Assembly: GCA_030651035.1 (NCBI GenBank)
Contig: JAUSCK010000099.1
Span: 1-43,344, forward strand
Direction: 5' to 3'
DNA length: 43,344 bases
DNA from: Elusimicrobiota bacterium
Lineage (GTDB): Bacteria; Elusimicrobiota; Elusimicrobia; Elusimicrobiales; UBA9959
The position numbers were made by a program, and so were the translations under genes. Shown here one piece after another: positions 4,961 to 31,266 of this stretch. The stretch's first letter is position 1. Each line of letters begins with the position of its first letter. The notes under the pieces are model-generated. The model did not search any database and was not told the origin of the DNA. It saw only the letters and a list, made by a program, of their open reading frames with translations.

Positions 4961-6046
4961 ATGAGCAAGAAGGCAACCACAATGGGGTTTAATTTTCATG
5001 CGCTGGTTGCGTTGTGCCGGCGAACCCATGATGAGCTTCGGGGCCGGGCAATCCGCTCGGTGGATATTGCCATGGTCGTACGGAACTGGCTGCTTGGCTG
5101 GTACATCGTTGAGTACGAGCAGACCGGCTCCGACCGGGCGCAGTATGGCAGCCGCTTAGTTGAGCGCCTTGCGGCAAAACTCCAAATTAAGGGGTCTTCC
5201 TCCACAAACCTGCGCAAATTCCGGCAGTTTTACCGCGAGTATCCAATTCAACAGACACTGCCTGTTGAATTCGACAAGGCTCTTTCCACTCCGTCAAATT
5301 GGCAGACAGTGTCTGTTGAATTGCTTCAGAGGTTCAGTTTGAGCTGGTCTCATTATGTCACACTCCTTTCAATTGGCAATCGCGAGGAACGGTGCTTTTA
5401 CGAAATTGAAGCAAAGGCAGGTAGTTGGGGAAGCCGCCACCTGGAACGTCAGATATCCAGTTCCCTTTATGAACGCCTGACCCTCAGCCGCGACAAGAAA
5501 TCAATCCGCCGCCTGGCGCAGAAGGGGCAGACCGTGGAGAAAGCCGCAGACATAATCAAGAATCCTCTTGTGCTTGAGTTCCTGGGTCTTGAAGAGAAAC
5601 CCGGCTACAGCGAAGAGGAGCTGGAAACGGCAATCATTAATAAAATCGAGCTCTTCCTTCTTGAATTAGGCAAGGGCTTCCTGTTTGAATCCCGCCAGAA
5701 GCGTTTTACCTTCGACAACGACCACTTCTATGTAGACCTGGTTTTTTACAACCGCCTTTTGCGCTGCTATGTCCTAATCGACCTTAAACGCGACAAGCTG
5801 ACCCACCAGGATCTTGGTCAAATGCAAATGTACGTCAATTACTTCGACCGTCATGTGAAGACCAAGGATGAGCTGCCCACTATCGGTATGGTGCTCTGTC
5901 ACCGCAAGAATGACGCTTTGGTAGAACTGACCCTGCCGAAGGAGGCAAATATTTTTGCCTCCAAATACCAGTTATACCTGCCCTCGAAGGAAGTTCTGAA
6001 GGCGCAACTGGAGAAGATCGAAGCGGAGTTGGGAGGCGAGCGATGA
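4961..6046 (+). CDS. PDDEXK nuclease domain protein (DUF1016/YhcG family)
   Basis: The 361-aa protein has the two family parts. The N-terminal DUF1016_N region includes 'WLLGWYIVEYEQTGSDRAQYG' (residues ~48-68) and 'NLRKFRQFYREYP'. The C-terminal PDDEXK-like domain has 'LGKGFLFESRQKRF' (~237-250), 'YVDLVFYNRLLRCYVLIDLK' (~257-276) and 'GQMQMYVNYFD'; the D...D-L-K pattern fits the nuclease core. Such proteins occur in islands and near restriction or Rhs loci; specific function is unknown. 'ggag' seven bases before the ATG supports the start. A 21-base inverted repeat lies inside the gene, and degenerate copies of a 109-bp segment flank it on both sides, suggesting it arrived as a unit. Confidence 0.88.
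   Translation: MSKKATTMGFNFHALVALCRRTHDELRGRAIRSVDIAMVVRNWLLGWYIVEYEQTGSDRAQYGSRLVERLAAKLQIKGSSSTNLRKFRQFYREYPIQQTLPVEFDKALSTPSNWQTVSVELLQRFSLSWSHYVTLLSIGNREERCFYEIEAKAGSWGSRHLERQISSSLYERLTLSRDKKSIRRLAQKGQTVEKAADIIKNPLVLEFLGLEEKPGYSEEELETAIINKIELFLLELGKGFLFESRQKRFTFDNDHFYVDLVFYNRLLRCYVLIDLKRDKLTHQDLGQMQMYVNYFDRHVKTKDELPTIGMVLCHRKNDALVELTLPKEANIFASKYQLYLPSKEVLKAQLEKIEAELGGER
5244..5323. repeat. Inverted repeat within the DUF1016 gene
   Basis: Arms 5244-5264 and 5303-5323 are reverse complements at 20 of 21 positions, including 17 perfect bases ('caattcaacagacactg'), with a 38-base spacer. The repeat lies in the linker between the two protein domains. The left arm's end 'ctgttgaatt' also recurs directly in the right arm. 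It could form a long hairpin in mRNA. Confidence 0.7.
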
Positions 6047-6071
6047 TTGGTGCGGCCGCCACTACCCCTAT

Positions 6072-6180
6072 AGATAAAAAAGCACACATCCAATAAGCCG
6101 GTCCGGGAAGGATTTTTAAAAATATCAGACAAATTCGCCTCAGAAAAGCACACCGGTCCCAAAATGGCGGCGGACTTCAA
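6072..6180 (+). pseudogene. Degenerate second copy of part of the 4536-4799 gene
   Basis: This 109-base stretch aligns without gaps to 4594-4702. In the matching frame it encodes a peptide ending 'GPKMAADFN', against 'GPKMAADFK' in the first copy. Many differences are at third codon positions, but the copy begins with an in-frame TAG and has no start or continuation. It is a gene fragment left by a duplication surrounding the DUF1016 gene. Confidence 0.7.
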
Positions 6181-6223
6181 TGGCAAAAGGCAGCAGGAGC
6201 CTTTGTTGGTAAAGGCAGTGAAA

Positions 6224-6242
6224 CGGTTACAAAATGTAACCG
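6224..6242 (+). promoter_or_regulatory. Operator-like inverted repeat upstream of the LexA-like gene
   Basis: Perfect 7-base arms 'cggttac' (6224-6230) and 'gtaaccg' (6236-6242) are separated by five bases. The site is 55 bases before the start of a small winged-helix regulator gene, so it may be that protein's own operator. Confidence 0.4.
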
Positions 6243-6297
6243 GTTGCGGGCGAAAAAGTGCCACCTATACGAATGTCGGGACCAGCAACAAAACTTC

Positions 6298-6564
6298 ATG
6301 AAGCTAACCCACACCGAACGACAAGGACAGTTCCTAGCCTACATACATCAATACAGCATCTTGAACGGTTGCGCTCCGGCTGAAGCGGACATGCAGCGGT
6401 TTTTCCAGATCACGCCTACGAGCGTGCATTCGATGGTACTCATGCTGGAACGGCGGGGCTTGATCCGGCGCGTGCCCGGACAAGCGCGCAGTATCACACT
6501 GGTCGTTCCGCCCGAATCATTGCCGCCCTTGAAACCCGCCCCGGTTCGCCCATTCAAGCTATGA
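6298..6564 (+). CDS. Small LexA-type winged-helix DNA-binding protein
   Basis: This 88-aa protein resembles only the DNA-binding domain of LexA: 'TERQGQFLAYIHQYSILNGCAPAE' is followed by 'MQRFFQITPTSVHSMVLMLERRGLI' (residues ~31-55), the helix-turn-helix and wing approach. It lacks the autoproteolytic C-terminal domain, so it is not an SOS repressor. An ATG at 6298 is preferred over an upstream TTG at 6244 because homology begins at the ATG. The stop codon overlaps the start of the next gene (ATGA at 6561), so the two are probably translated together. A 7-base inverted repeat lies upstream and could be its binding site. Confidence 0.7.
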   Translation: MKLTHTERQGQFLAYIHQYSILNGCAPAEADMQRFFQITPTSVHSMVLMLERRGLIRRVPGQARSITLVVPPESLPPLKPAPVRPFKL

Positions 6565-7166
6565 CAAACTCAACCAAGAAGCCTGGCGGCTGGAGCGCTG
6601 TCCGCCAACAACTTGCCGCCTGGGAGAAACCCGCGCTGATTGCATTGTTGAAAGACCTGTACGAAACTGCCGGCGTGAACCGCGACTTTATCCTTGCCCG
6701 CACCAAGGCCGACGAGGGCGGCGGCGAGGCCCTGGAAAAATACCGGGCCAGAATAGTGGAGCAGTTCTTTCCCGAACACGGGCATGGCAAGCTGAAGCTC
6801 GGAGAGGCGCGCAAAGCTATCCGCGATTACCGCAAGGCCACGGGCAACCTCTCCGGCACGGCGGAACTGCTGCTGACCTATGTGGAGAACGCCACGCATT
6901 TCACAAACTTGTATGGGGACATTAACGAGAGTTTCTACTACAGCGTTGAGTCGGCGCTACAGGAACTGGCCGCCCTGTTGCGCGGCGAGGCGCGTGTAAT
7001 GTATCCGCAGTTCAGCGACCGTCTGGCGAAAGTGAATCAAATGGCCGACCCCGTAGGCTGGGGATTTTGCGATTTCGTCGCGGATGTCGTCGGGCAACTG
7101 GAGGATGAACTCGGCGCCGGTGCTCAGAAAGCAGATCAAATAGTCCCAAAAACAGATTTAACTTAA
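6561..7166 (+). CDS. DUF6155-like hypothetical protein
   Basis: This 201-aa, largely helical protein shares the DUF6155 pattern as I recall it: an N-terminal 'ALIALLKDLYE' (residues ~26-36), 'ALEKYRARIVEQFF' (~56-69), 'LGEARKAIRDYRKATG' (~78-93) and 'LLLTYVENATHFTNLYGD' (~100-117). No catalytic motif is visible. It overlaps the LexA-like gene by four bases (ATGA), forming a two-gene operon. Function is unknown; the pairing with a small DNA-binding protein in a toxin-antitoxin-rich island is suggestive but not evidence of such a role. Confidence 0.65.
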   Translation: MTNSTKKPGGWSAVRQQLAAWEKPALIALLKDLYETAGVNRDFILARTKADEGGGEALEKYRARIVEQFFPEHGHGKLKLGEARKAIRDYRKATGNLSGTAELLLTYVENATHFTNLYGDINESFYYSVESALQELAALLRGEARVMYPQFSDRLAKVNQMADPVGWGFCDFVADVVGQLEDELGAGAQKADQIVPKTDLT

Positions 7167-7206
7167 GGGTATAAGTTTGCGATAATATTACCACTAAGAG
7201 AACTAA

Positions 7207-7638
7207 ATGCAGATCGAGTCAATTTCCATAAAAAATTTCAGGGTTTTTCAGGATGTCGTAATTAAGGATATTCCTTCTATGGCCACATTTGTAGGCGCTA
7301 ATGGAAGCGGGAAATCTACTCTATTTGATATTTTTGGCTTTTTGCGCGACTCTCTGGTGCATAATATTAAATCCGCCTTAATTAACAGGGGCGGCTTTAA
7401 TGAAGTGGTCAGCCGGGGAAGTAAGGGCCCAATATCTTTTGAAGTGAAATTCCGCGAAGGCGCCGACGGCCCCCTTGCTACTTACAGCCTGGCTATCGGG
7501 CTGCATGAAGGATTGCCGGCCGTGGTAAAGGAACAATTGAAATACAGGCGTGGGCAGCGGGGACAGCCTTGGAAATTTCTGGACTTTGAGTTGGGCGAAG
7601 GTAAATTAAAAAGGAAGATACGGGACGCTGCACGATAA
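7207..7638 (+). pseudogene. AAA-family ATPase (AAA_21/OLD-like), truncated after the N-terminal third
   Basis: The 143-aa frame starts with the typical 'MQIESISIKNFRVFQDV' and a Walker A 'FVGANGSGKSTLFDIFGFL' (residues ~28-46), then 'GGFNEVVSRG'. Family members are usually 350-450 aa and carry a signature motif, Walker B and often a TOPRIM domain, all missing here. Homology stops near 7613, exactly where a 110-bp repeated segment begins; the last codons of the frame come from that repeat. The gene was therefore cut by the rearrangement that placed the repeat. Confidence 0.78.
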
Positions 7639-7768
7639 CTCAATAACTTTAGGGAAGATCAGAGGCGCCATTTTAAGTCTTCATGATTGGCCGCTTGATA
7701 CGCATAGCGCCTGATGCGGCACTGCCATAGGCTTGAAAATCAGGAATTCGGGAAAGCTGGGCGGGAAA
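7613..7768 (+). repeat. Interspersed repeat, copy 1
   Basis: From 7613 the sequence matches 9500-9609: 'gaagatacgggacgctgcac' and the following ~50 bases are nearly identical, then the two rejoin at 'aatcaggaattcgggaaagc'. Copy 1 carries about 46 extra bases (~7689-7735) between these blocks. The repeat interrupts the AAA ATPase gene and lies 93 bp before the DUF4062 gene. Confidence 0.75.
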
Positions 7769-7860
7769 AATTATTGGCCAACTAGAATGCAGTCATAGTC
7801 GGTAAAAAAGCTATGGAAAATTGCCGCGCAGGACAACAGGTTATGGAGATTTGAACCCCG

Positions 7861-9387
7861 ATGGAACAGATATTCGTCAGCAGCGTTCAGAAAGAGCTTC
7901 AGAAGGAGCGGTATGCCATTCGGGATTGCGTACATGGCAACGACTTGCTGCGGCAGTTCTTTCGCGTTTTCCTGTTTGAGGATCTGCCGCCGGCCGGCCG
8001 ACGGGCCGATGATGTCTATCCGGACGAAGTGGCAAAGAGTCCGATTTACGTGGGAATCTTCGGGAATGAGTATGGGCGGGAGGATGAACAGGGGCTCTCC
8101 TCTACGGAAAAGGAGTTCAATCTTGCCTCCGGGCAGCGCAAGCGCCGGCTGATTCTGGTCAAGGGTCGCGACGACCAAGGCCGCAGGCAGAAGATGAAGG
8201 CGCTGATAGCGCGCGCCGGGGATGAAGTCGTTCGCCGTCGTTTCGATGACACGGATGAGATGCTGCGGTTGCTCTATGGCAGTCTCATCCGGTATCTGCA
8301 GGACCGGGGTTTTGTCGCGGCGAAAGACTTCGACGCGGCTCCCTGCCACAATGCGACGCTGGGTGATATTTCGGCGCGAAAGGTGAGGTGGTTCATCGGG
8401 AAAGCGCGTGACGAGCGGCACTATGCTCTCGCCGTAGACACGCCGCCGAAGGAAACGTTGGCACACCTGAACCTGTTGTCCAAGACCGTGCCAACAAGGG
8501 GAGCGATGCTTCTGTTTGGTGATTCCCCGGAGCGATTCTTCCATTCGGCTGATCTTACTTGTCTCCATTTTCACGGTACAGAAATTACAAAACCTATTCC
8601 AACACAGCAGATCTACCACGGCACATTGTTTGAACTCGTTGATCAGGCGGTGGACTTCGTCATGGCCAGAGTCGCGCGGTCTGTAAAGCCTAGCGACAGT
8701 TCGCCGGAGAGCAAGGTTCATTACGAAGTGCCCTATCGCGCTGTCCGCGAAGCTATCGTCAACGCCGTTGCCCACCGCAACTATGCGTCGAAGTCCGGCA
8801 TCCAGGTAATGTTGTTTGCGGATCGCATCGAGGTGTGGAATCCGGGAGGGCTTCCTGAAGACCTGACTGTGGACCAGCTACGCCATCCCCATCCGTCTGT
8901 CCCCCGAAACCGTCTGATTTGCGAGCCGCTTTTCCTGGCACATTACATAGAGCGTGCCGGGACAGGGACACTTGACATAATTAGACTCTGCACGGAAGCC
9001 GGGCTGCCTGAGCCGGAGTTCCGGGGTGAAGGGGAGCGCTTCATCACAATTATCTGGCGCGACTGGCTGACGTTGAATGTTATAGCTGCACTCAACTTAA
9101 ACGAGCGGCAACAAAAAGCTTTAAAACTTATAAAAACCCAGCGCCGAATCACAACCGGCGAATACATGGACTCCGTGAAATGTCCCAGAAGGACCGCGGG
9201 CCACGACCTTGATGAACTTGTTTCCAAGGGTGTTCTGCGGCGTATGGGGCATGGGCGCGGCGCCCACTACGCCCTCGCAGAGAAACGTGCCAACAATGTG
9301 CCAAATGCGCCAACCGGAGACCAGCCAGGAACCGCATCAATGGGGCCGGATGAGAGCAATGGATCCTCCGGGGATGCAAACTTGTGA
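7861..9387 (+). CDS. DUF4062 and HATPase_c_4 (RecG-like/AlbA-type) ATP-binding protein
   Basis: This 508-aa protein has three parts. Residues ~1-100 are a DUF4062-like domain ('IFVSSVQKELQKERYAIRD', 'IYVGIFGNEYG', 'STEKEFNLA'). The middle resembles the AlbA_2 region. Residues ~290-400 carry a GHKL ATPase-like fold with N-box 'EAIVNAVAHRNY' and 'IERAGTGTLDIIRLC'. A C-terminal winged-helix region (~415-475) follows, then a low-complexity tail. Family members are thought to be transcriptional or defence-related regulators, but activity is unproved. The start is supported by family homology although the Shine-Dalgarno ('ggag') is 13 bases away. Direct repeats flank the gene on both sides. It is the only complete member in the window; fragments of related genes lie at 2503-2871 and 10833-11420. 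Confidence 0.85.
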   Translation: MEQIFVSSVQKELQKERYAIRDCVHGNDLLRQFFRVFLFEDLPPAGRRADDVYPDEVAKSPIYVGIFGNEYGREDEQGLSSTEKEFNLASGQRKRRLILVKGRDDQGRRQKMKALIARAGDEVVRRRFDDTDEMLRLLYGSLIRYLQDRGFVAAKDFDAAPCHNATLGDISARKVRWFIGKARDERHYALAVDTPPKETLAHLNLLSKTVPTRGAMLLFGDSPERFFHSADLTCLHFHGTEITKPIPTQQIYHGTLFELVDQAVDFVMARVARSVKPSDSSPESKVHYEVPYRAVREAIVNAVAHRNYASKSGIQVMLFADRIEVWNPGGLPEDLTVDQLRHPHPSVPRNRLICEPLFLAHYIERAGTGTLDIIRLCTEAGLPEPEFRGEGERFITIIWRDWLTLNVIAALNLNERQQKALKLIKTQRRITTGEYMDSVKCPRRTAGHDLDELVSKGVLRRMGHGRGAHYALAEKRANNVPNAPTGDQPGTASMGPDESNGSSGDANL

Positions 9388-9499
9388 ATGTGCCAACAAT
9401 GTGCCAAATGTGCCACTCACACAATGAGAACCCGCGCTGGAGCCGGTCACGCCCCGGTCGCTACCAGCGCATTACTCGCCCGGCGCTATGTGTAGCCGG

Positions 9500-9609
9500 G
9501 GAAGATACGGGACGCTGCACGATAACTCAATAACTTCAGTGAAGATCGGGGGTGCTGCTTCAAGTCTTTATGATTAAAAATCAGGAATTCGGGAAAGCCG
9601 GGCGGGAAA
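9500..9609 (+). repeat. Interspersed repeat, copy 2
   Basis: This is the more compact copy of the repeat at 7613-7768. It lies about 110 bp after the DUF4062 gene, so the two copies form direct repeats bracketing a 1.9-kb segment. The rest of 9388-9682 holds short runs of 'gtgccaa'-type sequence just after the gene but no gene that I can support. Confidence 0.75.
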
Positions 9610-9682
9610 CAGTTTGCCGTCAAGTTGCAGAAACTGGCCGGGCGCAGATTCCACGCGTTGCCCGGGTGCTGCGGAGGCGCGG

Positions 9683-10246
9683 ATGAAGCCGCGCGATGCC
9701 ATAAAGCCGGCGGCCATAATACGAGCTCATATCCATGAGGTCCTTCGGATCGACTTTGTCGAATGGATTCAAGTGGACTCTTACATGGAGGATCTCAACC
9801 TGGTTCTGGACGAAATCCATTCCCTGGGGGAATCCGCGCCTGCCGCAGCGCTCGAGCTGACGTGGCGCTTCATCAAAAAGATCCCCGCCATATTCAACAA
9901 CGTCCATGATGAATACGAGCTCGCCATGTTTTGCTCGGATCTCGCGCAGGAGGCCTGGATTCTGGCAAAGAAAGCGGGCAATCCGATAGAGGATTCGGCT
10001 GCGCGGCTGCTGGACGCTTATGCGGCTGACGCTCATGATACCTGCCGATTTGATGACGTGCCGGATATCCTGGCCAAAGCGCGCCTGAGTGGGGAGAAGC
10101 GCCGCATACTGGCCGCTGCAGCCCTCCGCGCGGCGCAAACACATCCAAAGGCGGCGCCGGAACTGCGCGCGTTCGCCGACAAATGCTCGCAACCGACTCC
10201 TGTACCGGGCCAATTGCGCAAGCGGCTCAAAGACACAGCTTATTAA
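9683..10246 (+). CDS. Hypothetical protein
   Basis: A 187-aa protein with no family I recognise. I chose the ATG at 9683 because 'ggagg' lies six bases before it; an upstream in-frame start at 9614 would add 23 residues of sequence overlapping the end of the repeat. The protein is predicted by eye to be mainly helical and soluble, with acidic segments ('YMEDLNLVLDEIHSLGE', 'AARLLDAYAADAHD') and a basic C-terminus. The next gene begins nine bases after the stop with a strong ribosome site, so the two probably form an operon. Confidence 0.65.
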   Translation: MKPRDAIKPAAIIRAHIHEVLRIDFVEWIQVDSYMEDLNLVLDEIHSLGESAPAAALELTWRFIKKIPAIFNNVHDEYELAMFCSDLAQEAWILAKKAGNPIEDSAARLLDAYAADAHDTCRFDDVPDILAKARLSGEKRRILAAAALRAAQTHPKAAPELRAFADKCSQPTPVPGQLRKRLKDTAY

Positions 10247-10255
10247 GGAGGTTCT

Positions 10256-10747
10256 ATGACAAGACCAGTATTACGCGTAGTGAGAATTGACGAGGTGAAG
10301 ATCATCCGGAAGGGCGAGTACGTGCATTTCAATTACGCGGACCCGAAGCTGGGCGGCTTAAGCGTCAAGGTGGGGCCTGGAATCCGGAAAATGACCGACG
10401 CCGACCTTGTGCAATACCATAACGAGTTTGTCCGAAGCCGGCAGAGGCTCGCCAGGACCTATAAACACGTCGCCGTCGAGATCGTCGGCCGGCCTCAGCT
10501 CGAATATTCCGAGCTGTGCCGGCAATGGACCGCTCGCGGCGACGTGCTGCGCTGCTACATCGGAAGCGACGGCGGGAACGAGCCGGTCATTGAAATAGAC
10601 GACACGGAGCTCTCGCTCAGGGAGTTCGGCGAGCTATTGCTGACCCATGAAGGGTGGGGCATGAGGGTCGTCTTTGTGCCCGGTGACGAACTGCATAAGA
10701 CGCCGGCCATCAGGGTGGGCGCGGAGAAGGGCCGGTCCCATGGCTGA
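10256..10747 (+). CDS. Hypothetical protein
   Basis: A 163-aa protein of unknown family. 'aaggagg' at 10245-10251 is ideally placed before the ATG and overlaps the end of the preceding gene, supporting both as real genes. Short readable segments include 'VHFNYADPKLGGLSVKVGPG' (residues ~23-42), which looks like beta structure, then a helical middle and 'VIEIDDTELSLREFGELLL' (~116-134). No membrane segment, signal peptide or catalytic motif is visible. The partner gene upstream is also unassigned, so context gives no function. Confidence 0.7.
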   Translation: MTRPVLRVVRIDEVKIIRKGEYVHFNYADPKLGGLSVKVGPGIRKMTDADLVQYHNEFVRSRQRLARTYKHVAVEIVGRPQLEYSELCRQWTARGDVLRCYIGSDGGNEPVIEIDDTELSLREFGELLLTHEGWGMRVVFVPGDELHKTPAIRVGAEKGRSHG

Positions 10748-10802
10748 TATCGTCCGGGTGTGGGAGAGGGGACGTAGCTTTGTTTTTTGGTTATTTATCC
10801 AA

Positions 10803-10837
10803 GGAAGATAGTGGGGACTGTTTCAAGTCTTCATGAT
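10803..10837 (+). repeat. Interspersed repeat, partial copy 3
   Basis: The 35 bases resemble 7653-7687 and ~9539-9574: each begins with 'gaagat' and ends with 'aagtctt' then 'atgat'. Here the repeat runs directly into the middle of a truncated gene, so its right end marks a recombination junction. Confidence 0.55.
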
Positions 10838-11420
10838 CGTCCGTGTGCTGACCGCCCTGGGCTTTATGCGCGAACTTGGTGAGGGTGTACCGCGGATGTT
10901 TGACGAGATGGAGCGCGCCGGTTACTACCCGCCGCGGTTTGAGGCCATCGGCGGCGGGGTGGTACAGGTGACTTTGCGCAACGAGCCGGTTTACAACCGC
11001 GAGATGCTGGAATGTCAAGAAGTTGTCAAAACCGACATCTATGGAGCTTCTAACGTTATCAAGGACATGATTCGCAAAGGAGTTGTCCGGTCGCTCGGCA
11101 AGGGAAGCCGCATTTATGAAGTCAAAGAGCCGCTGCTTATGCGGCCGGACATGCCGCCAGAGCTTGCCCAATTGCTATCTGTTCTTCAACGCAAAGGGCG
11201 GCTCACCAATGCCGATATTCGCGGAACGCTTGGTCTATCCAAAATATCAGCCGTCCGGCTCCTGCGCGAACTTGTCGTAAGCCACTGGCTTACGGGAACC
11301 GGCAAGCGGGGGGTTGGGGCTATATATTCGCCTGGCCCCCGCCTATTGTATCAGTCTCAAACTATCACCAAAGAGGCTAAGGCTATTTTCACCATCATGT
11401 TGCATTGGATAATTCTGTGA
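10833..11420 (+). pseudogene. Truncated ATP-dependent helicase-like/AlbA-type regulator, C-terminal part
   Basis: The 195-aa frame opens in the middle of a conserved domain ('RVLTALGFMRELGEGVPRMF'), with the expected N-terminal AlbA_2 and most of the ATPase region missing. After 'NREMLE' it jumps to 'DIYGASNVIKDMIRKGVV', suggesting an internal loss of some tens of residues compared with relatives I recall. A C-terminal winged helix is visible ('KGRLTNADIRGTLGLSKISA'). The first codons overlap repeat copy 3, so the ATG is probably accidental. The reading frame stays open but the protein is unlikely to work as in its family. Confidence 0.7.
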
Positions 11421-11426
11421 GTACCC

Positions 11427-12110
11427 GTGAACAGTGAGATAAAAGCTTCCGATATAAAAGGCATTCCGGTGGCTGATGTTCTGAAAGAACTGAAAAAAGG
11501 TTCTTATTATGATTCCATCTGTCACCGTTATCCGGCGCTGAACGATGAAGATATTCGTAACGTCGTCCGTTTTCGGAATAAGAACCTGATTCCAGCCTTG
11601 TTAAAAAAAAGTTGTAATCACAAGGCTATAGCGAAAGAATTCGGTATAAGTGTTTCACTGGTGTGGTATATAAAGAAAAAACTCAAGGAAGAGAAGCAGA
11701 TGAGAAAAAAGTGGGGGAATCTTTCTACCGGAGAGGTAAACAGGATAAAAAAGGCCTTTCACTGCGAAAACCTCAAGGAATTGGTTAAAAAAGCTTTATC
11801 AAGGGATCAGGTATCGATGACAAGAGGCATTGGCGGAATTGCTGTCGCGGAGCTTGAGAAAGCCGGGGCTTTTCGGCATTCCCCGCCTCCGGCCATTTTA
11901 TTTGATGATGAAATCCCAAGCCCGAAATTTATCACAAAAGCCAGTCATTATTTAAACGCCCTGTTTATCCTGAATGCTTCTGTTAAGTTCAGGCAGGTAG
12001 CGCTGTTTGTTGATCTCATTGTGAATGCCGGCAGGAAATTACACCCTGCAAAAAATATTAGGCCATTCTACTCCCCTTTTGACCCAGCGCTATGCCCATC
12101 TGTCCAATAG
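11427..12110 (+). CDS. DUF433-like and helix-turn-helix protein; C-terminus possibly disrupted
   Basis: The 227-aa frame starts at a GTG six bases after the previous stop. Residues ~10-50 resemble a DUF433 domain ('GIPVADVLKELKKG', then 'YPALNDEDIRNVVRF'), which in other loci belongs to VapB-type antitoxins. Residues ~56-85 look like a helix-turn-helix ('NHKAIAKEFGISVSLVWYIK'). The remainder has no recognisable family. The last ~25 codons lie over a tyrosine-recombinase remnant read in another frame, so the original C-terminus has probably been replaced. A/T content is higher than in its neighbours, hinting at separate origin. Role unknown. Confidence 0.55.
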   Translation: MNSEIKASDIKGIPVADVLKELKKGSYYDSICHRYPALNDEDIRNVVRFRNKNLIPALLKKSCNHKAIAKEFGISVSLVWYIKKKLKEEKQMRKKWGNLSTGEVNRIKKAFHCENLKELVKKALSRDQVSMTRGIGGIAVAELEKAGAFRHSPPPAILFDDEIPSPKFITKASHYLNALFILNASVKFRQVALFVDLIVNAGRKLHPAKNIRPFYSPFDPALCPSVQ

Positions 12111-12138
12111 GCATTTGCGGTCAAATACTTCATCCTGA
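12037..12138 (+). pseudogene. C-terminal remnant of a tyrosine recombinase/integrase
   Basis: Read in the frame containing 12061-12063, the sequence gives 'LQKILGHSTPLLTQRYAHLS', the classic end of phage-type integrases: the LGH motif with its catalytic His, then the Tyr nucleophile in 'QRYAHLS'. The frame stops at 12138. Nothing upstream in this frame extends the enzyme, so only the tail survives. It overlaps the end of the DUF433-like frame and the 3' end of the leftward receiver-kinase gene. It marks the right edge of the accessory island. Confidence 0.75.
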
Positions 12139-13269
12139 AAACCCGGGGCTTTTCACCGGCAGCTCAAACCAGAAGGAGCTTCCCTTTCCCTCTTCGCTGT
12201 CTAACCCGACGGTGCCGCCGTGCGCTTCCACCGCCAGTTTGCAGAAGGTGAGGCCCAGGCCCGTGGAATATCTCTGGCGGCCGGCGCGGAGTTCCCCCTG
12301 GGCGGACTTGTCAAATATCATCTGCTTATACTCGGGCGCAATGCCCAGCCCGTTGTCCTTCACGCTCACGCGCACCCGCTCGCCTGCGGGTTCAATGCCC
12401 AGCAGTATAAGGTCGCCATCCCGCGTGAACTTCAGCGCGTTGGACAGCAGGTTCTGGATGACCCTGAGAATTATCTCGCGGTCCGCCATGATCGTTACCG
12501 GGCTTTCAGAGGGTGTAAGCCGGATCTCGCGGCCTCCGGAGAGCGGCTTCACGCCGGAGATCCCGTCTTCCAGGATGCGGCCTAAATCGCATTCGGACGT
12601 CTTCAGCTTCATCTGCCCCTCTTCCATCCTGCTCGTCTCCAGAATATCGCAGGCCATCTGGATCATCTGCATTACCGCCTTCATGGCCTCGGCAACGTAG
12701 CTGGAGTGAGCCGCTGAAAGCGTATGGTCCGTATCGTCCCTGATGAGCTTAAGATAGGCAAAAGTGCCCGTCAGCGGGGAGCGGAGGTCGTGTATGATCA
12801 TCTGCACGAGAGAGTCGCGCAGTTTTTCCAGCTCGCGCAGCTTGTCGTAGGCCTCCTGCAGCTGTCGTTTCTGACGGCGCAGCTCCAGGTGGGTCTCGAC
12901 GCGCGCCACCACTTCCTCGAACTGGAAGGGCTTGGTGATATAGTCCACGCCGCCGGTGCCGAAGGCTTTTACCTTATCGATAGTTTCGGAGAGGGCGCTC
13001 AGAAAAATAACCGGGATATCTTTAAGTTTTTCATCGGCCTTGAGTTTCTCGCAGACCTCGTAGCCGTTCATTTCAGGCATGTTGATGTCCAAAAGGATAA
13101 GGTCGGGCGGATCGTTGCGGGCGGCCTGCAGCGCCAGTTTGCCGCTGACGGCGGCGCGGACCTTGTAGCCCCGCCCCTTCAGCATTTCGGAGAGCATTTC
13201 CAGGTTCGCGGGTATATCGTCCACCATCAGGATGCTTGGCGGGTTTTGAGAGTTAATGGGTTCGGTCAT
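12130..13269 (-). CDS. REC-HisKA-HATPase hybrid protein (receiver-histidine kinase)
   Basis: A 379-aa cytoplasmic protein with an N-terminal receiver (Asp in 'LILLDINMPEMNGY'), a HisKA domain ('[10 protein letters not shown]', phosphoaccepting His) and an HATPase domain (N-box 'NLLSNALKF', G-boxes 'DNGLGIAPEY' and '[18 protein letters not shown]'). There is no sensor or membrane segment, so it is probably switched by phosphorylation of its own receiver. I chose the ATG at 13269 because 'ggagg' sits nine bases upstream; an ATG at 13290 is in frame but lacks this. The F-box region reads 'IFDKSAQGELR' where the paralogs have '[10 protein letters not shown]', a change that could alter activity. 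It is the last gene of the cyclase/FN3 operon; its stop overlaps the integrase remnant. Confidence 0.9.
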   Translation of the reverse strand: MTEPINSQNPPSILMVDDIPANLEMLSEMLKGRGYKVRAAVSGKLALQAARNDPPDLILLDINMPEMNGYEVCEKLKADEKLKDIPVIFLSALSETIDKVKAFGTGGVDYITKPFQFEEVVARVETHLELRRQKRQLQEAYDKLRELEKLRDSLVQMIIHDLRSPLTGTFAYLKLIRDDTDHTLSAAHSSYVAEAMKAVMQMIQMACDILETSRMEEGQMKLKTSECDLGRILEDGISGVKPLSGGREIRLTPSESPVTIMADREIILRVIQNLLSNALKFTRDGDLILLGIEPAGERVRVSVKDNGLGIAPEYKQMIFDKSAQGELRAGRQRYSTGLGLTFCKLAVEAHGGTVGLDSEEGKGSSFWFELPVKSPGFSG

Positions 13270-13339
13270 AGTTAGTTTCCTCCGGGGCATTTTAAATTTT
13301 TAATCAATTCTCCGCTAAAACGAACACGGCAAAACTTCC

Positions 13340-14732: not shown

Positions 14733-17700
14733 TTAATAGAGTACCGCTAGTTTAAATTGCTGCCGCTCTGTCTTGCCAGTATAGCGCTTTTCAATGATGC
14801 AGATGTAGCCGCCCGGCGCCGCTGTTTTCCCCGTGCCGTTGCGGCCGGCCCAGGGCCACACCTTGTTGCCCCCCGAACCTTCGGCGCGCGCTTCTTCATA
14901 CACCAGGTTGCCCTCTAAAGTGAACAGTTTTAAAATCACTTTAGCGGGAGCTTTCAGAAAAAACCCTATCTGGGTGGGGCCGCGCTCCGGATCGAACGGG
15001 TTTGGCCAATTATATGGTTTGACCATGGGGGGCGTCTGCTCCAGGGTCCAGACCGGGATGCCCGGGCCGAGTTCGGAATAATCGCTGAACCCCCCGGCGT
15101 TGTTTTCCGCCCGCACCCGGGCGAAAACAGATTTGCCGCCGGGAAGCCCGGTCGCCTGGTAGGAGAGTTCAAGGCCGACATCTTCCGCGTTTAAGATGTC
15201 ATTTCCGTAGCGGGCCGTACCCACGTCCAGGAAGTAGCTTTTGATCCCGCTCTCCGTATCGGCGGCCGGAGACCAGGAAAACAGTATATTCGAATCGTAA
15301 GAGAACTTGCGGTCGGCCTGCACAGTCGCGAGGCGCTCGGGCGCGGTACGGTCCACCAGTACCCCAAGGCTTGACACGGGAGAATATTGGCTTAAGATCC
15401 CGCCCTCATCAATGGCCCTTACCTTCAGGTAATAAGTCTTGCCATTGGCTGCCGGGTCCAGTGTGAAGCTCGCCAGCGGGCCGATTTCAGAGTCAACCAG
15501 CACGTTGAAATCGGCCGGCGTGGTGCCTACTGACACAACATAGGTGGAAATAAGGGTGTCGCCGAAGGCGATGGCGGGCGGCCAGCTCCAGGTGATCCCG
15601 GAGGTGGCGGTAAAAGCTCCGGGCACAGGGACGGGCTGGCCCGGGGGCAGGACTGTGCTTAGCGCCACATGAAAGGGCCCGATGTCGGCCGTCTTGTAGC
15701 CGAGCGCATTGAAGTTGTAGCTCCGCAAGTGGAGGTACCAATAGCCGTTTCCCGTGGCCGTGGTGGTCACTACTCCTAAAGCGGCCCAGCTCGACTCCTG
15801 GTCGTTCCAGACATGGGTGGCGTTCCTGTCCCAGGCGGAACGGTAGAACTGCAGCCCTCCCGTCCCGGTGGAGACGGTGTTGGTAAAGCTGAACGTGGTC
15901 ACGTTAACGGACCCGGTGGTCGTGCTGGCCGAGACGGCAGGCAGGGCCGCATAGGTGAGCGCGCCGCCGAGCTCAAGCTCCGCGGTCGGTACGCCGCCGT
16001 AATTGCGGGCGCGTACGCGGGCGTAATAAGTTGTGTTCGGGGCCAGCGCGAAACCTTCGCTCACCCCCGTCACGGCGGCGCCGGCCCACAGGAGCGAGAA
16101 GTCAGGCCGCGTGGAAACCTCCGCCTCGTACTGCGTCCCGGCGGGGTTGCCGCCCGCGGACCATTGCACGGTCAAACCGCTGTCAGTCAAAATAAAGGGG
16201 GGCACGGCGGGCTGCGGAGGCACTGCCAGGGTGAAGGTGGAGACGACGGTGTCGGCATATGGTCCCGCGCTCCCGGAAAAATTAACCGCCTTAACCCTTG
16301 CCGTGTAGATCGTGTTGGGGGTCAGGCCGGTGAAAGCGGCCTGGCTGCCCGGCGTAGCTGAGGAGCGAAAAATGCTCACGAAGTTATCCCTGGATATTTC
16401 CGCTACATAGGCGGTGTTCTGCGGATTGCCGTTGGCCGTCCAGCCCAGCGCGAGGGCTGAACTGGTAACACCGCTGAAAGGCGAGGCCGCCAGGGCGGGG
16501 GGCAGCGGCAAAGTGACTGCCGCAACGGCCGCCGTGTAACCGCTCGGCACATTGTCCCTGTTCACCGCTTTGACGCGGCCATAGTAGGTCGTGTTGGGGA
16601 GCAGCCCGCCGAAGGTCTGGCTGAGGGCCAGTGTAGCGGCCGAGGAAATGGCCGTGCCCGGTGAGAAGCCGGCGCTTGATACCTCTACGCTGTAGAAGGT
16701 GCCGCCGGGGTTGCCCCCGTCTCCCCAGGTGAAGGTGAAGGCGGCGGCCGAAACCGCGGTGAACGGCTGGTCCGCGTTGAACGGGACCGTAGCCAAAGTG
16801 GCCGTTGAGCGGATCGGGCCGGAGTAGGGGCCGTCCACGCCCAGGAAGTTGCGGGCTTTTACCCGGGCCTGGCAGATCGTGTTGGGCGTCAGCACGGCGA
16901 ACGCCGCGTTTGTTGACAGTGTCGAGGCAGAAGCGACGATCGTGACAAAGCTGTCTTTCGAGATCTCGGAAATATATAAAGTCCCGCCCGGGTTCCCGCC
17001 GCTCTCCCAGCTGAAGGTTAAGCCGGCGGTACTAAGGCCGGTAAAAGGCGAGGCCGGGACAACAGGGGCCAAAGTGTAGGTCACCGTTGAGACGGCGCCG
17101 GTATAAGAGGTTGGGTTGCCCCCCACACCGATGGCGCGGACATGGACATAATAGGTGGTATTGACCGACAGTCCCGTAAAAATATAATTCAGGTTAGTCG
17201 TAACTTCCGACGAGACAGGCGCGGAGAAGCTGCTGCTGGTGGAGATTTCCGGATTGTAGCTGGTCCCGGGGGCATTGCTGCTGTCACCCCAGGTGAAGGT
17301 CAGGCCGCCGGCCGAGAGGGCAGGGAAGGGCACAGCAGCATTGCCGGGCGCCGAAATAGAGGTAGCGGTGGAAACGATCGGAGAGGAATACTGCCCCGGG
17401 ATCCCGGCGAAGTTTACGGCCCGCACCCGGGCCTGGTATACCATGTTGGCCGAAAGCCCGGAGAAGGCCGCGCTCAGGGCGCTGGTCCGGATCGCGCTGG
17501 ATACGCTTACGAACCCGTCCCTGGAGATCTCGGCCGCATAGCGCGTATCGGGCGGGTTCCCTCCCTCGCTCCAGTTGAAGGTTAAGCCGGTTGTATTGAC
17601 GTTGGTAAAAGGCGAGGCCGGGACAACAGGGGCCAAAGTGTATGTCACGGTGGAGACGGCGCCCGCATAAGACGTAGGGTTGCCCCCTACGCCGAGGGCG

Positions 17701-20700
17701 CGGACATGGGCGTAATAGGTGGTGTTGACCGACAGTCCCGTAAAAACGTAATTGAGGTTAGTTGTAACATCCGAAGAGACGGGCGCGGAGAAGCTGCTGT
17801 TAGTGGAAATCGCGGGGTTGTAGTTGGTGCCCGGTGGATTGCCGCCGTCTCCCCAGGCGAAAGTCAGGCCGCCGGCCGAGAGGTCCGGGAAGGACACGGC
17901 AGCATTGCCGGGCGCCGAAATAGAGGTGGCGGTGGAAACGATAGGTGAGGAATACTGCCCGGTGATACCGGCGAAGTTGACGGCCCAGACGCGCGCCTGG
18001 TATACAGTGTTGGCCGCAAGCCCGGAGAAGGCCGTGCCCAGGGCGCTGGTCCGGATCGCGCTGGAGATGCTCACGAACCCGTCCCTGGAGATCTCGGCCG
18101 CATAGCGCGTGCCGGGCGGGTTGCCGCCCTCGGTCCAGCTGAAGGTAAAGCCGGTCGTGCTGATGCTGGTAAACGGCGAGGCCGGGATGGCGGGCTCCAA
18201 AGTATAGGTCACAGAAGAAACGACGGGGCTGGAATAGGGGCTGGCCAGGCCGCCGACTCCTAGGGCGCGGACACGGGCGTAATAAGTGGTATTGACCGCT
18301 AGTCCCGTGAAAATATAATTCAGGTTAGTCGTAACTCCCGACGAGACAGGCGCGGAGAAGCCGCTGCCGGTGGAGAGCTCGGGATTATAGTTGGTGCCGG
18401 AGGCATTGCCGCTGTCTCCCCAGGCGAACGTCAGGCCTCCGGCCGAGAGGTTCGCGAATGGTACGGCAGCGTTACCGGGCGCGGAACTGGCCGTAACGGT
18501 GGAAACGATGGCGGAGGAATACTGCCCCGGGATACCTGCGAAGTTGACCGCCCACACCCGGGCCTGATATACCGTGTTGGGCGCAAGCGCGGAGAAGGTT
18601 GCGCTGAGTGCGCTGGTCTGTATCGCGCTGGATACGCTTACGAACCCGTCCCGGGATATCTCCGCCGTATAGGCGGTGTTCTGCGGGTTGCCGTTGGCCG
18701 TCCAGTCCAGCGTAAAACCTGAGCTGGTCACGCCGCTGAAAGGCGCGGCTGCCAGGGCGGGCGACAGCGGCAAAGTGACCGCGGCAACTACCGCCGGGTA
18801 GCCGCTCGGCACATTGTCCATATTCACAGCTTTAACGCGGGCGTAGTAGGTTGTGTTGGGCAGCAGGCCGCTGAAGGTCTGGTTGAGGGCCAGCGTAGCG
18901 GCCGAGGAAATGGCCGTGGCCGGGGCGAAGTTGGAGCTTGAAATCTCAACAGTGTAGGCGGTTCCGCCGGGGTTGCCCCCGTCCGCCCAGTTGAAGGTGA
19001 AGGTTGCGGCTGAGACCGCGGTAAATGACTGGCCCGTGTTTAACGGGATAGTGGCGAGGGTAGTTGTTGAGCGGATCGGGCTGGAGTAGGGCCCGTCCAC
19101 GCCCAGGAAGTTGAGGGCTTTCACGCGGGCTTGGTAGATAGTGTTTTGCGCCAAACCGGAGAACGCCGCGCTTGTTGACAGGGTGGAGGCGGAAGCGATA
19201 AGCGTGGCAAAACTGTCCCTGGAGATCTCGGCCGTGTAGCGTGTGCCGGGAGGGTTGCCGCCCTCGACCCAACTAAAGGTAATGCCGGCTGTGCTAATGC
19301 CGGCAAAAGGCAAGGCCGGGACGGCAGGGGCCAAAGTGTAGGTCACGGTGGAAGCCACGGGGCTGGAATAGACGCTGGCCAGGCCGCCGACCCCGAGGGC
19401 GCGGACATGGGCGTAATAAGTTGTATTGACCGCCAGCCCGGTGAAAATATAATTGAGGTTAGTGGTGACTTCCGAAGAGACGGGCGCTGAGAAGTTGCTG
19501 CTGGTGGAAATTTCAGGATTATAGTTGGTCCCGGAGGCATTGCCTCCGCCCGCCCAGGAGAAGGTCAGGCCGGCAGCGGAAAGGTTCGGGAAGGACACAG
19601 CAGCGTTACCGGGCGCTGAACTGGCGGTAGCGGTGGAAACGATGGCGGAGGAATACTGCCCCGGGATACCTGCGAAGTTGACCGCCCATACCCGTGCCTG
19701 GTATATCGTGTTGGCCGCAAGCGCGGCGAAGGCCGCGCTCAGCGCGCTGGTCTGGACCGCGCTGGATATGCTTACGAACCCGTCCTGGGATATCTCCGCC
19801 GTATAGGCGGTGTTCTGCGGGTTGCCGTTGTCCGTCCAGTCCAGCGTGAAACCTGAGCTGGTCACGCCGCTGAAAGGCGCGGCTGCCAGGGCGGGCGACA
19901 GCGGCAAAGTGACAGCGGCAACTACCGCCGGATAACCGCTCGGGACATTATCCATGTTAATCGCTTTGACGCGGCCATAGTAAGTCGTGTTGGGCAGCAG
20001 GCCGCTGAAGGTCTGGCTAAGGGCCAGGGTAGCGGCCGAGGAAATGGCCGTGCCCGGGGCGAAGTTGGAACTTGAGGTCTCGACAGCGTAGGAGGTTCCG
20101 CCGGGGTTTCCACCGTCTCCCCAGGTGAAGGTGAAGGTGGAGGCCGAGACCGCGGTGAACGGCTGGTCCGCGTTGAACGGGACAGCGGCCAAAGTGGTCG
20201 TTGACCGGATAGGGTTGGAGTAGGGCCCGTCCACGCCAAGGAAGCTGCGCGCTTTTACCCGGGCCTGGTAGATAGTGTTAGGCGTCAGGCCGGAGAACGC
20301 CGTGCTTGGCGATAGCGCAGCGGCGGAAGCGATAAGCGTGGCAAAGCTGTTCCTGGAGAGCTCGGAAATATATAAAGTCCCGTCCGGGTTCCCGCCGTTC
20401 TCCCAGCCGAAGGTTAGGCCGGCGGTGCTAAGGCCGGCAAAAGGCGATGCCGGGACAGCGGGGGATAAAGTGTATGTTACGGTGGAGATGGACCCCGTGT
20501 AGGAAGTGGGGGCGCCGCCCACGCCGATGGCGCGGACGTGGGCGTAATAGGTGGTATTTACCGACAGTCCCGTGAAAACGTAATTGAGGTTAGCGGTGAC
20601 CTGCGACGAGACGGGCGCGGAGAAGTTGCTGCTTGTGGAGATCTCGGGGTTGTAGCTGGTGCCGGTGGTATTGCCGCCGGCCTCCCAGGAGAAGGTCAGG

Positions 20701-25366: not shown

Positions 25367-26518
25367 TCAGTTCTTCGCCGGGAGGAGCGGCCCGGGACCG
25401 TTCTTCGGCAGTTCGAACCAGAAGCAGCTTCCCTGTCCCTCTTCGCTGTCTACCCCGATGCTGCCGCCGTGCGCCTCCACAGCCAGCTTGCAGAAGGTGA
25501 GGCCGAGGCCCGTAGAATTTTTCTGGCGGCCGGCGGGAAGGTCCACCTGGGCGAACTTCTCAAATATCTTCTGCCTGAACTCAGGCGCAATGCCCGGCCC
25601 GTTGTCGCGCACGCTTACGTGCACCCCTCCGGCGGAGGGCGCGATGTCCAGCCGGATCATCCCGCCGTCCTGCGTGAATTTCAGCGCGTTAGCCAGCAGG
25701 TTCTGGATGATCCTGAGGACTATCTCCCTGTCCGCCAGGACTATCGCCGGTCTTCCAGGGCTTTTAAACCGGATCTCCCTGTTTTCGTAAAGCGACTTCA
25801 GCCCTGAGAGGCTCTCTTCCACCGCGCTGCCCAGGTCGCATTCCTCCAGCTTGAGCTTCATCTGTCCGCCTTCCATCTTGCTTGTGTCCAGGACATCGCT
25901 GACTATCCGGGCCATCTGCTTTGCCGACGCCATGGCCTCGCTGATGTAGCGGAGGAGGTCCGTCGAAAGGGTGTTCTTCGCGCTTTCTTTGATGAGTTCA
26001 AGAAAGCCGTAGATGCCCGCCAGCGGTGAGCGGAGGTCGTGTATGATCATGTGCACAAGAGAGTCGCGCAGGCTCTCAAGCTCGCGCAGCCTTGTATAGT
26101 TCTCCTGCAGCTGGCGTTTCTGCCGGCGCAGTTCCAGGTGGGTCTCTACGCGCGCCTCCACTTCCTCGAACTGGAACGGCTTGGTGATGAAATCCACTCC
26201 GCCGGCGCCGAAGGCTTTTACCTTATCCATCGTTTCGTTGAGGGCGCTCAGGAAAATAACCGGGACATCTTTCAATCTTTCGTCAGCTTTCAGCTGCCGG
26301 CACACCTCGTAGCCGTTCATTTCAGGCATGTTGATGTCCAGAAGGATAAGGTCGGGCGGATCGTTGCGGGCGGCCTGCAGCGCCATCTCGCCGCTGACGG
26401 CGGCGCGCACCTTATAGCCCCGCACTTTCAGCATCACGGAGAGCAGCTCCAGGTTCGCGGGTATATCGTCCACCATCAGGACGCTTGATGTTTTTTTTAA
26501 AAGAATTTGCTCGGTCAT
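25367..26518 (-). CDS. REC-HisKA-HATPase hybrid protein (receiver-histidine kinase)
   Basis: A 383-aa protein: receiver with Asp in 'LILLDINMPEMNGY' (residues ~52-65), H-box '[20 protein letters not shown]' (~150-169), N-box 'NLLANALKF', G-boxes 'DNGPGIAPEF' and '[18 protein letters not shown]'. It has no sensor or membrane part. The ATG at 26518 is preferred because 'gagg' precedes it by nine bases and paralog homology starts there; the open frame extends farther upstream only through the end of the neighbouring gene read in another frame. It is the last gene of the long signalling cluster. Intergenic hairpins lie on both sides. All catalytic residues I can check are present, including the F-box phenylalanine absent in the 12130 paralog. 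Confidence 0.92.
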   Translation of the reverse strand: MTEQILLKKTSSVLMVDDIPANLELLSVMLKVRGYKVRAAVSGEMALQAARNDPPDLILLDINMPEMNGYEVCRQLKADERLKDVPVIFLSALNETMDKVKAFGAGGVDFITKPFQFEEVEARVETHLELRRQKRQLQENYTRLRELESLRDSLVHMIIHDLRSPLAGIYGFLELIKESAKNTLSTDLLRYISEAMASAKQMARIVSDVLDTSKMEGGQMKLKLEECDLGSAVEESLSGLKSLYENREIRFKSPGRPAIVLADREIVLRIIQNLLANALKFTQDGGMIRLDIAPSAGGVHVSVRDNGPGIAPEFRQKIFEKFAQVDLPAGRQKNSTGLGLTFCKLAVEAHGGSIGVDSEEGQGSCFWFELPKNGPGPLLPAKN

Positions 26519-26559
26519 AACTGGATCCTCAGGAGTTTCCTTTTTTGGGGCAAGATTAA

Positions 26560-26625
26560 ACATGGATAGACAGGATATGCAGGATTTTATTGACTTCTTA
26601 TTCTGTCTATCCTGTTCATCCATGT
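26560..26625. repeat. Intergenic inverted repeat (hairpin), second copy
   Basis: Arms 26560-26585 and 26600-26625 match as reverse complements at about 21 of 26 positions, loop 14 bases. The motif is the same as in the 25287-25351 hairpin. It sits between two receiver-kinase genes that are otherwise in one direction, and may reduce read-through between them. Confidence 0.7.
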
Positions 26626-26666
26626 AAATACTCTGTAAAAAGTCCGCCCGGAGGGCGTTAATATAT

Positions 26667-27824
26667 TTACTTCGCGGGGGGGCGCGCGCGCGGCGCGGGG
26701 CCGTCCACAGGCAGTTCAAACCAAAAGCAGCTTCCCTTTCCCTCTTCGCTGTCGACCCCGATGCGGCCGCCGTGCGCCTCCACCGCCAGCTTGCAGAAGG
26801 TAAGGCCCAGGCCGGTGGAATATCTCTGATGAACGGCGCTGAGTTCCACCTGGGCGAATTTTTCAAATATCTTTTTCCTGTACTTAAGCGCGATCCCGGG
26901 CCCGCTGTCCTTAACGCTTACGCGTACCAGGTCGGCGGCGGCCTCAATGCCCAGCCGGATAATACCGCCGCCGTTGGGGGTAAACTTTATCGCGTTACCC
27001 AGCAGGTTCTGTATCACCCTGGAAACGATCTCACGGTCCGCCAGGACGGTCGCCGGGCTTTCAGGGGGGGTAAACTGTATCTCGCGGCCTTTAAAAAGAG
27101 ATTTCATCCCAGAGATATCCTCTTCCAAAATGCGGCTTAGATCGCATTCGGTCAGCTTGAGCTTCATCTGTCCTTCCTCCATTTTGCTCGTATCCAGGAC
27201 ATCGCTGACCATCTGAACCAGCTGCTTTGTCGCGTTCATAGCCTCGGCAACGTGGTTGATGGAATCCGCAGAAAGTTTGTTTTTTGCGTCTTCTATGATG
27301 AGCTGATGGTAACCTGCTATGACCGTCAGCGGTGAGCGGAGGTCGTGTATGATCATGTGCACAAGAGAGTCGCGTGTTTTTTCAAGTTCACGCAGTTTGT
27401 CATGGTTCTCCTGCAGCAGGCGTTTTTGCCGGCGCAGTTCCAGGTGGGTCTCAACGCGCGCCTCCACTTCCTCGAACTGGAACGGCTTGGTGATGTAGTC
27501 CACGCCGCCGGCGCCGAAGGCCTTTACCTTGTCCATCGTTTCCGTCAGGGCGCTCAGGAAAATAACGGGTATTTCTTTTAATTTCTCGTCGGCTTTAAGT
27601 TTAGCGCACACCTCGTAGCCGTTCATGTCAGGCATGGTTATATCCAGGAGAATAAGGTCGGGCGGATCGTTGCGGATGGCCCGCAGCGCCAGCTCCCCGC
27701 TGACGGCTGCGCGCACCTTATAGCCCCGCCCTTTCAGCATCCCGGAGAGCAACTCCAGGTTCGCGGGCGTATCGTCCACCATCAGCACGCTCGGAGTGGT
27801 CTTGGAATAAATTTGTTCATCCAT
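26667..27824 (-). CDS. REC-HisKA-HATPase hybrid protein (receiver-histidine kinase)
   Basis: A 385-aa paralog of the neighbouring genes. The receiver has Asp in '[14 protein letters not shown]'; the kinase has '[20 protein letters not shown]', N-box 'NLLGNAIKF', and G-boxes '[10 protein letters not shown]' and 'STGLGLTF'. 'aggagg' nine bases before the ATG (27824) fixes the start. The start lies eight bases inside the end of the preceding gene (27817), so translation is probably coupled. A Pro/Arg-rich tail ends the protein. As in its relatives, no input domain other than the receiver is present, implying it acts as a relay from another kinase, possibly the CheA or hybrid kinases encoded upstream. 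Confidence 0.92.
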
Positions 27825-30133: not shown

Positions 30134-30152
30134 GATGTTAACCCTCCTGCCT

Positions 30153-31262: not shown

Positions 31263-31266
31263 GTGA

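Follow-up and report, generated by a model that had tools for sequence, protein, structure and literature searches.

A 46-nt dispersed structured element, likely mobile, in one Elusimicrobiota family and its copies within protein-coding genes

Introduction

Small dispersed palindromic sequences that lie in frame within unrelated protein genes and encode a conserved peptide are known from Rickettsia, and the parts of the published account that concern us here describe ten families of such Rickettsia palindromic elements (RPEs), each about 150 bp long (PMC10969869). A second kind of short dispersed hairpin DNA, the REP sequence, occupies many sites; its movement is ascribed to an HUH enzyme that acts in trans, TnpAREP/RAYT, whose cleavage site, according to the relevant passages of one source, is chosen by complementarity with bases beside the hairpin (PMC8266576).

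Here we report on a sequence from an Elusimicrobiota bacterium that shares features with both. It came to light in a contig of 43,344 nt, analysed whole and called the window below, which belongs to a 4.47-Mb draft genome of 320 contigs (the window genome). Genomes, contigs and loci are denoted by G, C and L numbers, the window genome being G000.

Results

Two direct repeats in rearranged sequence

The features of the window that bear on the analysis are as follows.

7207..7638, plus strand: AAA/OLD-like ATPase gene, cut off at the start of copy 1, at about 7602-7612 (profile matches, G004:C392)
7613..7768, plus strand: copy 1 of the dispersed repeat, with the 46-nt element inside it (alignment)
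7613..7651, plus strand: module 1 of copy 1 (copy 2: 9500-9538), arm of a Y1-transposon-type inverted repeat (matches to Y1 element ends)
7690..7735, plus strand: 46-nt structured, likely mobile element, GCCG...CTTG, directly 3' of TTG in copy 1 (model R1 match 7687-7736)
7861..9387, plus strand: DUF4062 + HATPase_c_4 gene between the two copies, apparently complete at 508 aa (profile search)
9498..9626, plus strand: copy 2 of the dispersed repeat, 129 nt, without the element (comparison with G004:C206)
10803..10837, plus strand: module 2 fragment abutting a truncated gene (alignment with module 2; score 22 against a random maximum of 12 in 2837 pieces)
10833..11420, plus strand: N-terminally truncated HATPase_c_4/winged-helix ORF beside this third fragment (HATPase_c_4 positions 44-89/89)

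The initial annotation had described a direct repeat of ~110 bp at 9500-9609 and a longer copy of it at 7613-7768. Alignment and BLAST bear out both as copies of a dispersed repeat: positions 7613-7688 match 9500-9575 with 87% identity over 76 nt (E = 5.7e-20). On the right, the 33 nt at 7736-7768 match 9577-9609 with 97% identity. The repeat itself thus stands, but not its extent, since copy 2 at 9498-9626 is 94% identical over 129 nt to G004:C206:91-219, from another genome of the genus. Copy 1 aligns as copy 2 plus one clean insert of 46 nt, and is longer because of this separate structured element at 7690-7735, which is missing from copy 2 and from G004:C206. The distinct element behind the difference in copy length, which had been overlooked, is the more unusual of the two things found.

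Searches for the repeat elsewhere, as the initial annotation had proposed, returned matches both in the window genome and in relatives. With copy 1 (156 nt) as query, the window genome gave 20 matches in all, copy 2 among them, and most of the dispersed matches spanned only query positions 65-126; copy 1 therefore holds something that copy 2 lacks. When copy 2 was the query, the above-chance matches beyond both copies were short pieces at C282, C51 and C313. Among relatives, the 129-nt query was matched in 10 of 59 family genomes at an E value of 1e-6 or better, in several of them to the first module only. The 35-bp piece noted at 10803-10837 is likewise a genuine fragment of the repeat by its score against copy 2, and is not one of the 31 matches that BLAST returned from the whole genome at E 10.

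As judged from its matches, the repeat is a composite of an inverted-repeat arm of the Y1-transposon type (module 1) and a dispersed sequence of ~90 nt (module 2). The first ~35 nt match both inverted ends of a Y1 element in the window genome (G000:C51:11258-12380), in which an open frame of 334 aa surrounds the Y1 match. Module 1 also occurs as solo copies in relatives, and a complete miniature form with 29-bp arms (29 paired bases; fold z -10.8) is present in G013 (L281). Module 2 recurs in G004, G249, G235 and G110 beside differing sequences. Neither the window nor the module 2 loci examined hold a Y1 gene that resembles the C51 protein; for the window this is in line with the earlier remark that no transposase was seen.

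The genes next to the repeats are broken. Similarity of the AAA gene to its nearest relative, G004:C392 (protein 93% identical; DNA 84.5% identical over window positions 7158-7602), stops at 7602, which agrees with the original observation that the homology ends at copy 1. Past this point copy 1 follows in the window after 10 bases, and the relative goes on with unrelated coding sequence until its contig ends 86 bases later. The AAA gene was matched by its best PADLOC model, HEC-01B, only over positions 1-136/395 and by Pfam AAA_15 over positions 1-83/374, and is truncated at the repeat; a tblastn search with the 424-aa relative gave, apart from the known part, only weak, chance-like hits, with no remainder in the window or beyond either copy. 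The match of the ORF at 10833 to HATPase_c_4 starts only at position 44 of 89, and this ORF is therefore N-terminally truncated.

The repeats sit in rearranged, gene-truncating debris. Homologues of the DUF4062 protein (52% identical) at G004:C116, G022:C6 and window-genome C98 have no repeats beside them in the stretches searched; we therefore take the repeats to be scattered debris that marks points of rearrangement, and the DUF4062 gene between the copies is most likely a bystander. As had been stated, no inverted repeats were seen at the ends of the segment (seed 12, length 25 or more).

Several other features of the window were recorded. The island at 4961-12110 has defence-like content and broken genes: a DUF1016/YhcG-type nuclease (PADLOC candidate PDC-S02), a LexA-type DNA-binding protein, the truncated HEC-01B-like ATPase and the DUF4062/HATPase gene. 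An ORF of 2803 aa at 14733-23144 lies over repeats of about 282-285 nt on the minus strand. A block of ~1.1-1.3 kb recurs several times at 12130-13290 and 25367-31340 with 70-86% identity (families D1 and D3-D7), apparently as tandem paralogous genes with a further copy near 12.1 kb.

Structure and distribution of the 46-nt element

From 15 aligned copies a consensus was derived, and a covariance model was built for genome searches. A structure of 12 pairs in three helices has 96.7% of its cells paired and 20 cells with double changes, a level reached in 0 of 500 shuffles; sliding the helix partners abolishes the pairing signal, and RNAalifold, unprompted, returned the same structure. The structural case rests on this covariation; the fold of the window element as single-sequence DNA is no better than its shuffles (z -0.70).

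At E values of 0.01 or better, the covariance model found 68 copies in the window genome, and it detected the element in 32/32 genomes of the genus. Across a sample of the phylum the element was present in 40 of 294 genomes, namely in 40 of the 46 listed family members versus 0 of the 248 others. A degenerate pattern matched 17 stretches in genome_contigs, 13 of them titled Elusimicrobia or Elusimicrobiales and four only 'bacterium', and had 0 matches in viral_contigs. No Rfam family matched the element in the six loci searched, and our search of the literature found no such element described in Elusimicrobia. Adjoining one element locus, at L112:2584-2684, there is a sub-threshold match to the Magnesium-II riboswitch (33 bits against a gathering score of 40). 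We are confident that the direct repeats are real, that the AAA gene is truncated, and that a dispersed structured element with exact insertion points exists.

Empty and filled sites

Four kinds of empty/filled comparison, with units of 45-47 nt, place the insertion just 3' of a TTG-like triplet. The module 2 sequence of copy 2 and G004, ...ATGATT(G/A)AAAATC, differs from that of copy 1 by a net 46 nt. IS91-like genes of the window genome offer two sites. The C-terminal one (+46) is filled in L244, L250 and L251 and empty in L245 and L249; the other (+47, with TTTG) is filled in L249 and empty in L244, L245 and L252. Among 30 aligned ArsC sequences of the family, two carry an additional 45 nt, or 15 residues, between ...VVT(L/V)CD and (N/K)A.... 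Lastly, a nested copy in G249 (L325) consists of a complete 46-nt unit after an internal TTG of an outer element, which, once the inner unit is removed, equals the window element at 46 of 46 positions.

Tandem arrays with an exact spacing of 46 nt occur in several genomes (four copies each in L181 and L183, three in L182, and two each in L119, L122, L184 and L216). On these grounds we are fairly confident that the 46-nt element is mobile, now or in the past. The composite of module 2 and the element is also present in G235 and G249, and the element of copy 1 was therefore probably not inserted in place but descends from an old composite.

Two further observations concern places where copies accumulate. 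Several degenerate IS91-like (Y2 HUH) transposase genes of the window genome, L244, L245 and L247-L252, bear one or two element copies at shared positions. In the short contigs, also of the window genome, that hold L068 (C71), L069 (C95), L070 (C240), L071 (C314) and L180 (C308), scrambled epimerase fragments join at element copies in several combinations of left and right flank, which might reflect element-element recombination inside the gene or misassembly; the genomes compared are draft MAGs, and several of the epimerase contigs are short and perhaps misassembled.

Target and guide-like pairing

The left triplet is TTG in 25 of 44 copies in the window genome and in 50 of 75 in relatives. 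For the duplication counts we dropped rows without a recognisable last hairpin or sharing a flank with an earlier row, which kept 44 of 61 window-genome rows and 75 relative ones; two weak matches of 63 had been left out of the later rows. The left and right dinucleotides match in 23 of 44 window-genome copies (shuffled mean 15), and in relatives in 39 of 75 (shuffled mean 35), with 0/23 among copies whose left pair differs from TT. These counts suggest duplication of the target in the window genome and not in relatives, and we did not retain it as a general rule.

The right triplet is specific to the subfamily: TTG, or CAG, TAG, TCG, ATG, CTA or CAC. Of the four bases just 5' of the last hairpin, the third (the guide base) is Watson-Crick complementary to the base that ends the 3' triplet. 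This holds in 102 of 105 copies, as CG in 89 (CAC with NNG), TA in eight (CAT with NNA) and GC in five (CAG with NNC); the two guide bases before it read CA in every row but one. The count drew on 124 rows, hand-thinned from those of the duplication counts, of which the 105 with an ATA-loop last hairpin were used. In shuffles, which ignore the kinship of the copies, the mean was 79 and the maximum 86, and 0 of 2000 reached 102; where the guide base is not C, 13 of 15 copies still pair. Because the right triplet covaries with the guide base, the 3' triplet belongs to the element. The cleavage-site complementarity of IS200/IS605 and TnpAREP (PMC8266576) would give such pairing, and one more pair of the stem would look alike.

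Copies in frame within proteins

A 45-nt form of the element has one base fewer and, on the strand opposite to the model, reads KAMPVPHK(R/G)YAHQAA, so that it adds 15 residues in frame. Against arsenate reductases of the PDB 1jl3 type, both ArsC proteins that carry it show a 15-residue gap at or next to the peptide. When the insert was left out of the tree, its two carriers did not group, which takes two changes; holding them together costs 71.1 units of log-likelihood (AU p 0.00028). The same codon was therefore hit twice, independently, unless gene conversion moved the insert.

Further copies in frame lie in the linker between the Gas_vesicle and GvpK domains in G235, in a NuoI-like protein of G249, in the C-terminal tail of ribosomal protein L4 in the window genome (the Pfam domain ends at 202/223), in the N-terminal segment of an unnamed 507-aa ORF, and in several epimerase-gene fragments. 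The NuoI-like protein makes a weaker case than ArsC, as its comparison with a solved structure gives gaps around the peptide and not one clean 15-residue gap. All in-frame cases share the peptide frame KAMPVP or a variant of it.

An open frame of at least 30 residues on both sides was found for 10 of 15 copies of the 49-column class, several of the ten being fragments of one gene, and for 46 of 128 of the 50-column class, after the rows had been reduced by flank to 154 non-redundant copies. Such ORF counts were rejected as evidence by themselves: long open frames are common by chance in this GC-rich DNA, and we therefore relied solely on cases in which both flanks show homology or the insert adjoins a recognised domain.

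Candidate movers

None of the nine Y1 loci of the genome has an element within about 1.5 kb, and Y1/RAYT genes were rejected as carriers because no element match lies near these nine genes. The IS91-like transposase was also rejected. Its Y2 genes are targets and not carriers, since the copies lie inside or behind the ORF, and sister genes lack them at the same positions.

We are only moderately confident in an HUH-type mechanism. In single-stranded form the element would fold into a two-part stem with a hairpin of the GCGC-ATA-GCGC type and a second short ATA-loop hairpin. It inserts directly 3' of an NNG triplet, usually TTG, and ends in its own triplet. The mover would be an HUH-type single-strand transposase acting in trans, which would find the cleavage site by pairing with the guide beside the last hairpin. 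The frame-keeping form would persist in genes through the lack of a stop in the frame used and the tolerance of the loops that receive it.

Discussion

We think it rather likely that the locus has two layers, the repeats being debris and copy 1 carrying a 46-nt non-autonomous mobile element with a putative HUH mover. This bears on the original suggestion of a recombination site or small mobile sequence, of which the mobile part stands, as both the repeat and its insert are dispersed, and a mobile 1.9-kb unit finds no support. It would be tempting to see in the direct repeats a pair of recombination or integration sites by which the DUF4062 segment is mobilised, given their direct orientation and the truncated genes on both sides. 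However, homologues of the DUF4062 gene elsewhere lack the repeats, other repeat copies flank unrelated sequence, and the neighbours checked include no integrase or transposase, so that such a site pair seems scarcely credible. It is also quite improbable, if a little less so, that the 46-nt element is a conserved regulatory or structural RNA or a terminator and does not move. Its helices covary, and some copies lie directly upstream of genes that we take to be rplA and an ackA-like gene, as an RNA of this kind might; but the six loci had no Rfam match, and some copies run antisense to the gene whose ORF holds them. The tandem arrays, the nested copy and the recurrent hit at the same codon likewise speak against an RNA.

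A more serious rival concerns the mover. A classical transposase of the DDE type might move a core of 43 nt plus TTG and duplicate 3-4 bp of the target, as at verified sites the left triplet recurs at the right end even where it is not TTG (TCG/TCG, TTTG/TTTG), and in the window genome the dinucleotide match exceeds its shuffled mean (23/44 vs 15). In relatives, however, 0 of the 23 copies with a non-TT left pair match, the right triplet is subfamily-specific and covaries with internal bases, and terminal inverted repeats are lacking. We hence regard a DDE-type mover as unlikely, though worth keeping in mind, and retain the putative HUH-type transposase.

Tentatively, we propose as a plausible fuller account that this is a family-specific single-strand element of 46 nt with guide bases of its own to select its end and target, whose 45-nt subfamily, adapted to protein-coding DNA, would repeatedly write the same 15-residue peptide into tolerated loops of unrelated enzymes and be a counterpart of the RPEs. 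If true, it would be a second, independently evolved and far smaller one: Rickettsia is the main lineage from which selfish DNA in frame within bacterial proteins has been described, and the present family would join it with a unit one third the size. The clean empty/filled pairs, the nested copy and the recurrent codon would make both the movement of the element and the tolerance of proteins directly testable. The element also accounts for the difference in length between the two direct repeats.

Several known kinds of element invite comparison. PATEs are miniature derivatives of IS200/IS605 elements, and the element has hairpins as IS200/IS605 does and may resemble it in insertion 3' of a short fixed target and in guide-like pairing with the 3' cleavage site; the covariation in 102 of 105 copies would fit such a guide or one more stem pair. 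When insertion 3' of a fixed target without duplication was examined, the target was TTG-like and the duplication results were mixed across genomes. It differs, however, in being only 46 nt long, with no autonomous parent found and no Y1 gene between hairpin ends at the nine Y1 loci. The BOX elements of pneumococcus are modular (boxA-B-C) and contain a tandemly amplified unit of ~45 bp, a tandem unit size that our element shares, while it lacks the boxA-B-C modules. From MITEs of DDE transposons it differs in that its consensus has no terminal inverted repeat and duplication is not general, and from IS91-like (Y2 HUH) elements in that it does not lie at oriIS/terIS ends but interrupts or follows the ORF.

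A REP/RAYT-like character belongs to module 1 of the window repeat and not to the 46-nt element, which has no consistent GTAG (or CGTC) tag, with CGTC only in part of the variants that have T at column 8, flanks no RAYT-type gene, and also lies within genes in frame. Like RPEs, it occurs in frame with a conserved peptide (ArsC, the GvpK ORF, the NuoI-like protein, L4 and the epimerase). Unlike them, it measures 45-47 nt and not about 100-150 bp, has two ATA-loop hairpins and exact tandem arrays, and occurs in one Elusimicrobiota family, its named matches being only Elusimicrobia(les) or 'bacterium' MAGs. Since each of RPE, REP, IS200/IS605 and MITE departs from it in a tested feature, we file the element under none of them; in the way it works it comes closest to an RPE of very small size that has single-strand features like those of REP sequences.
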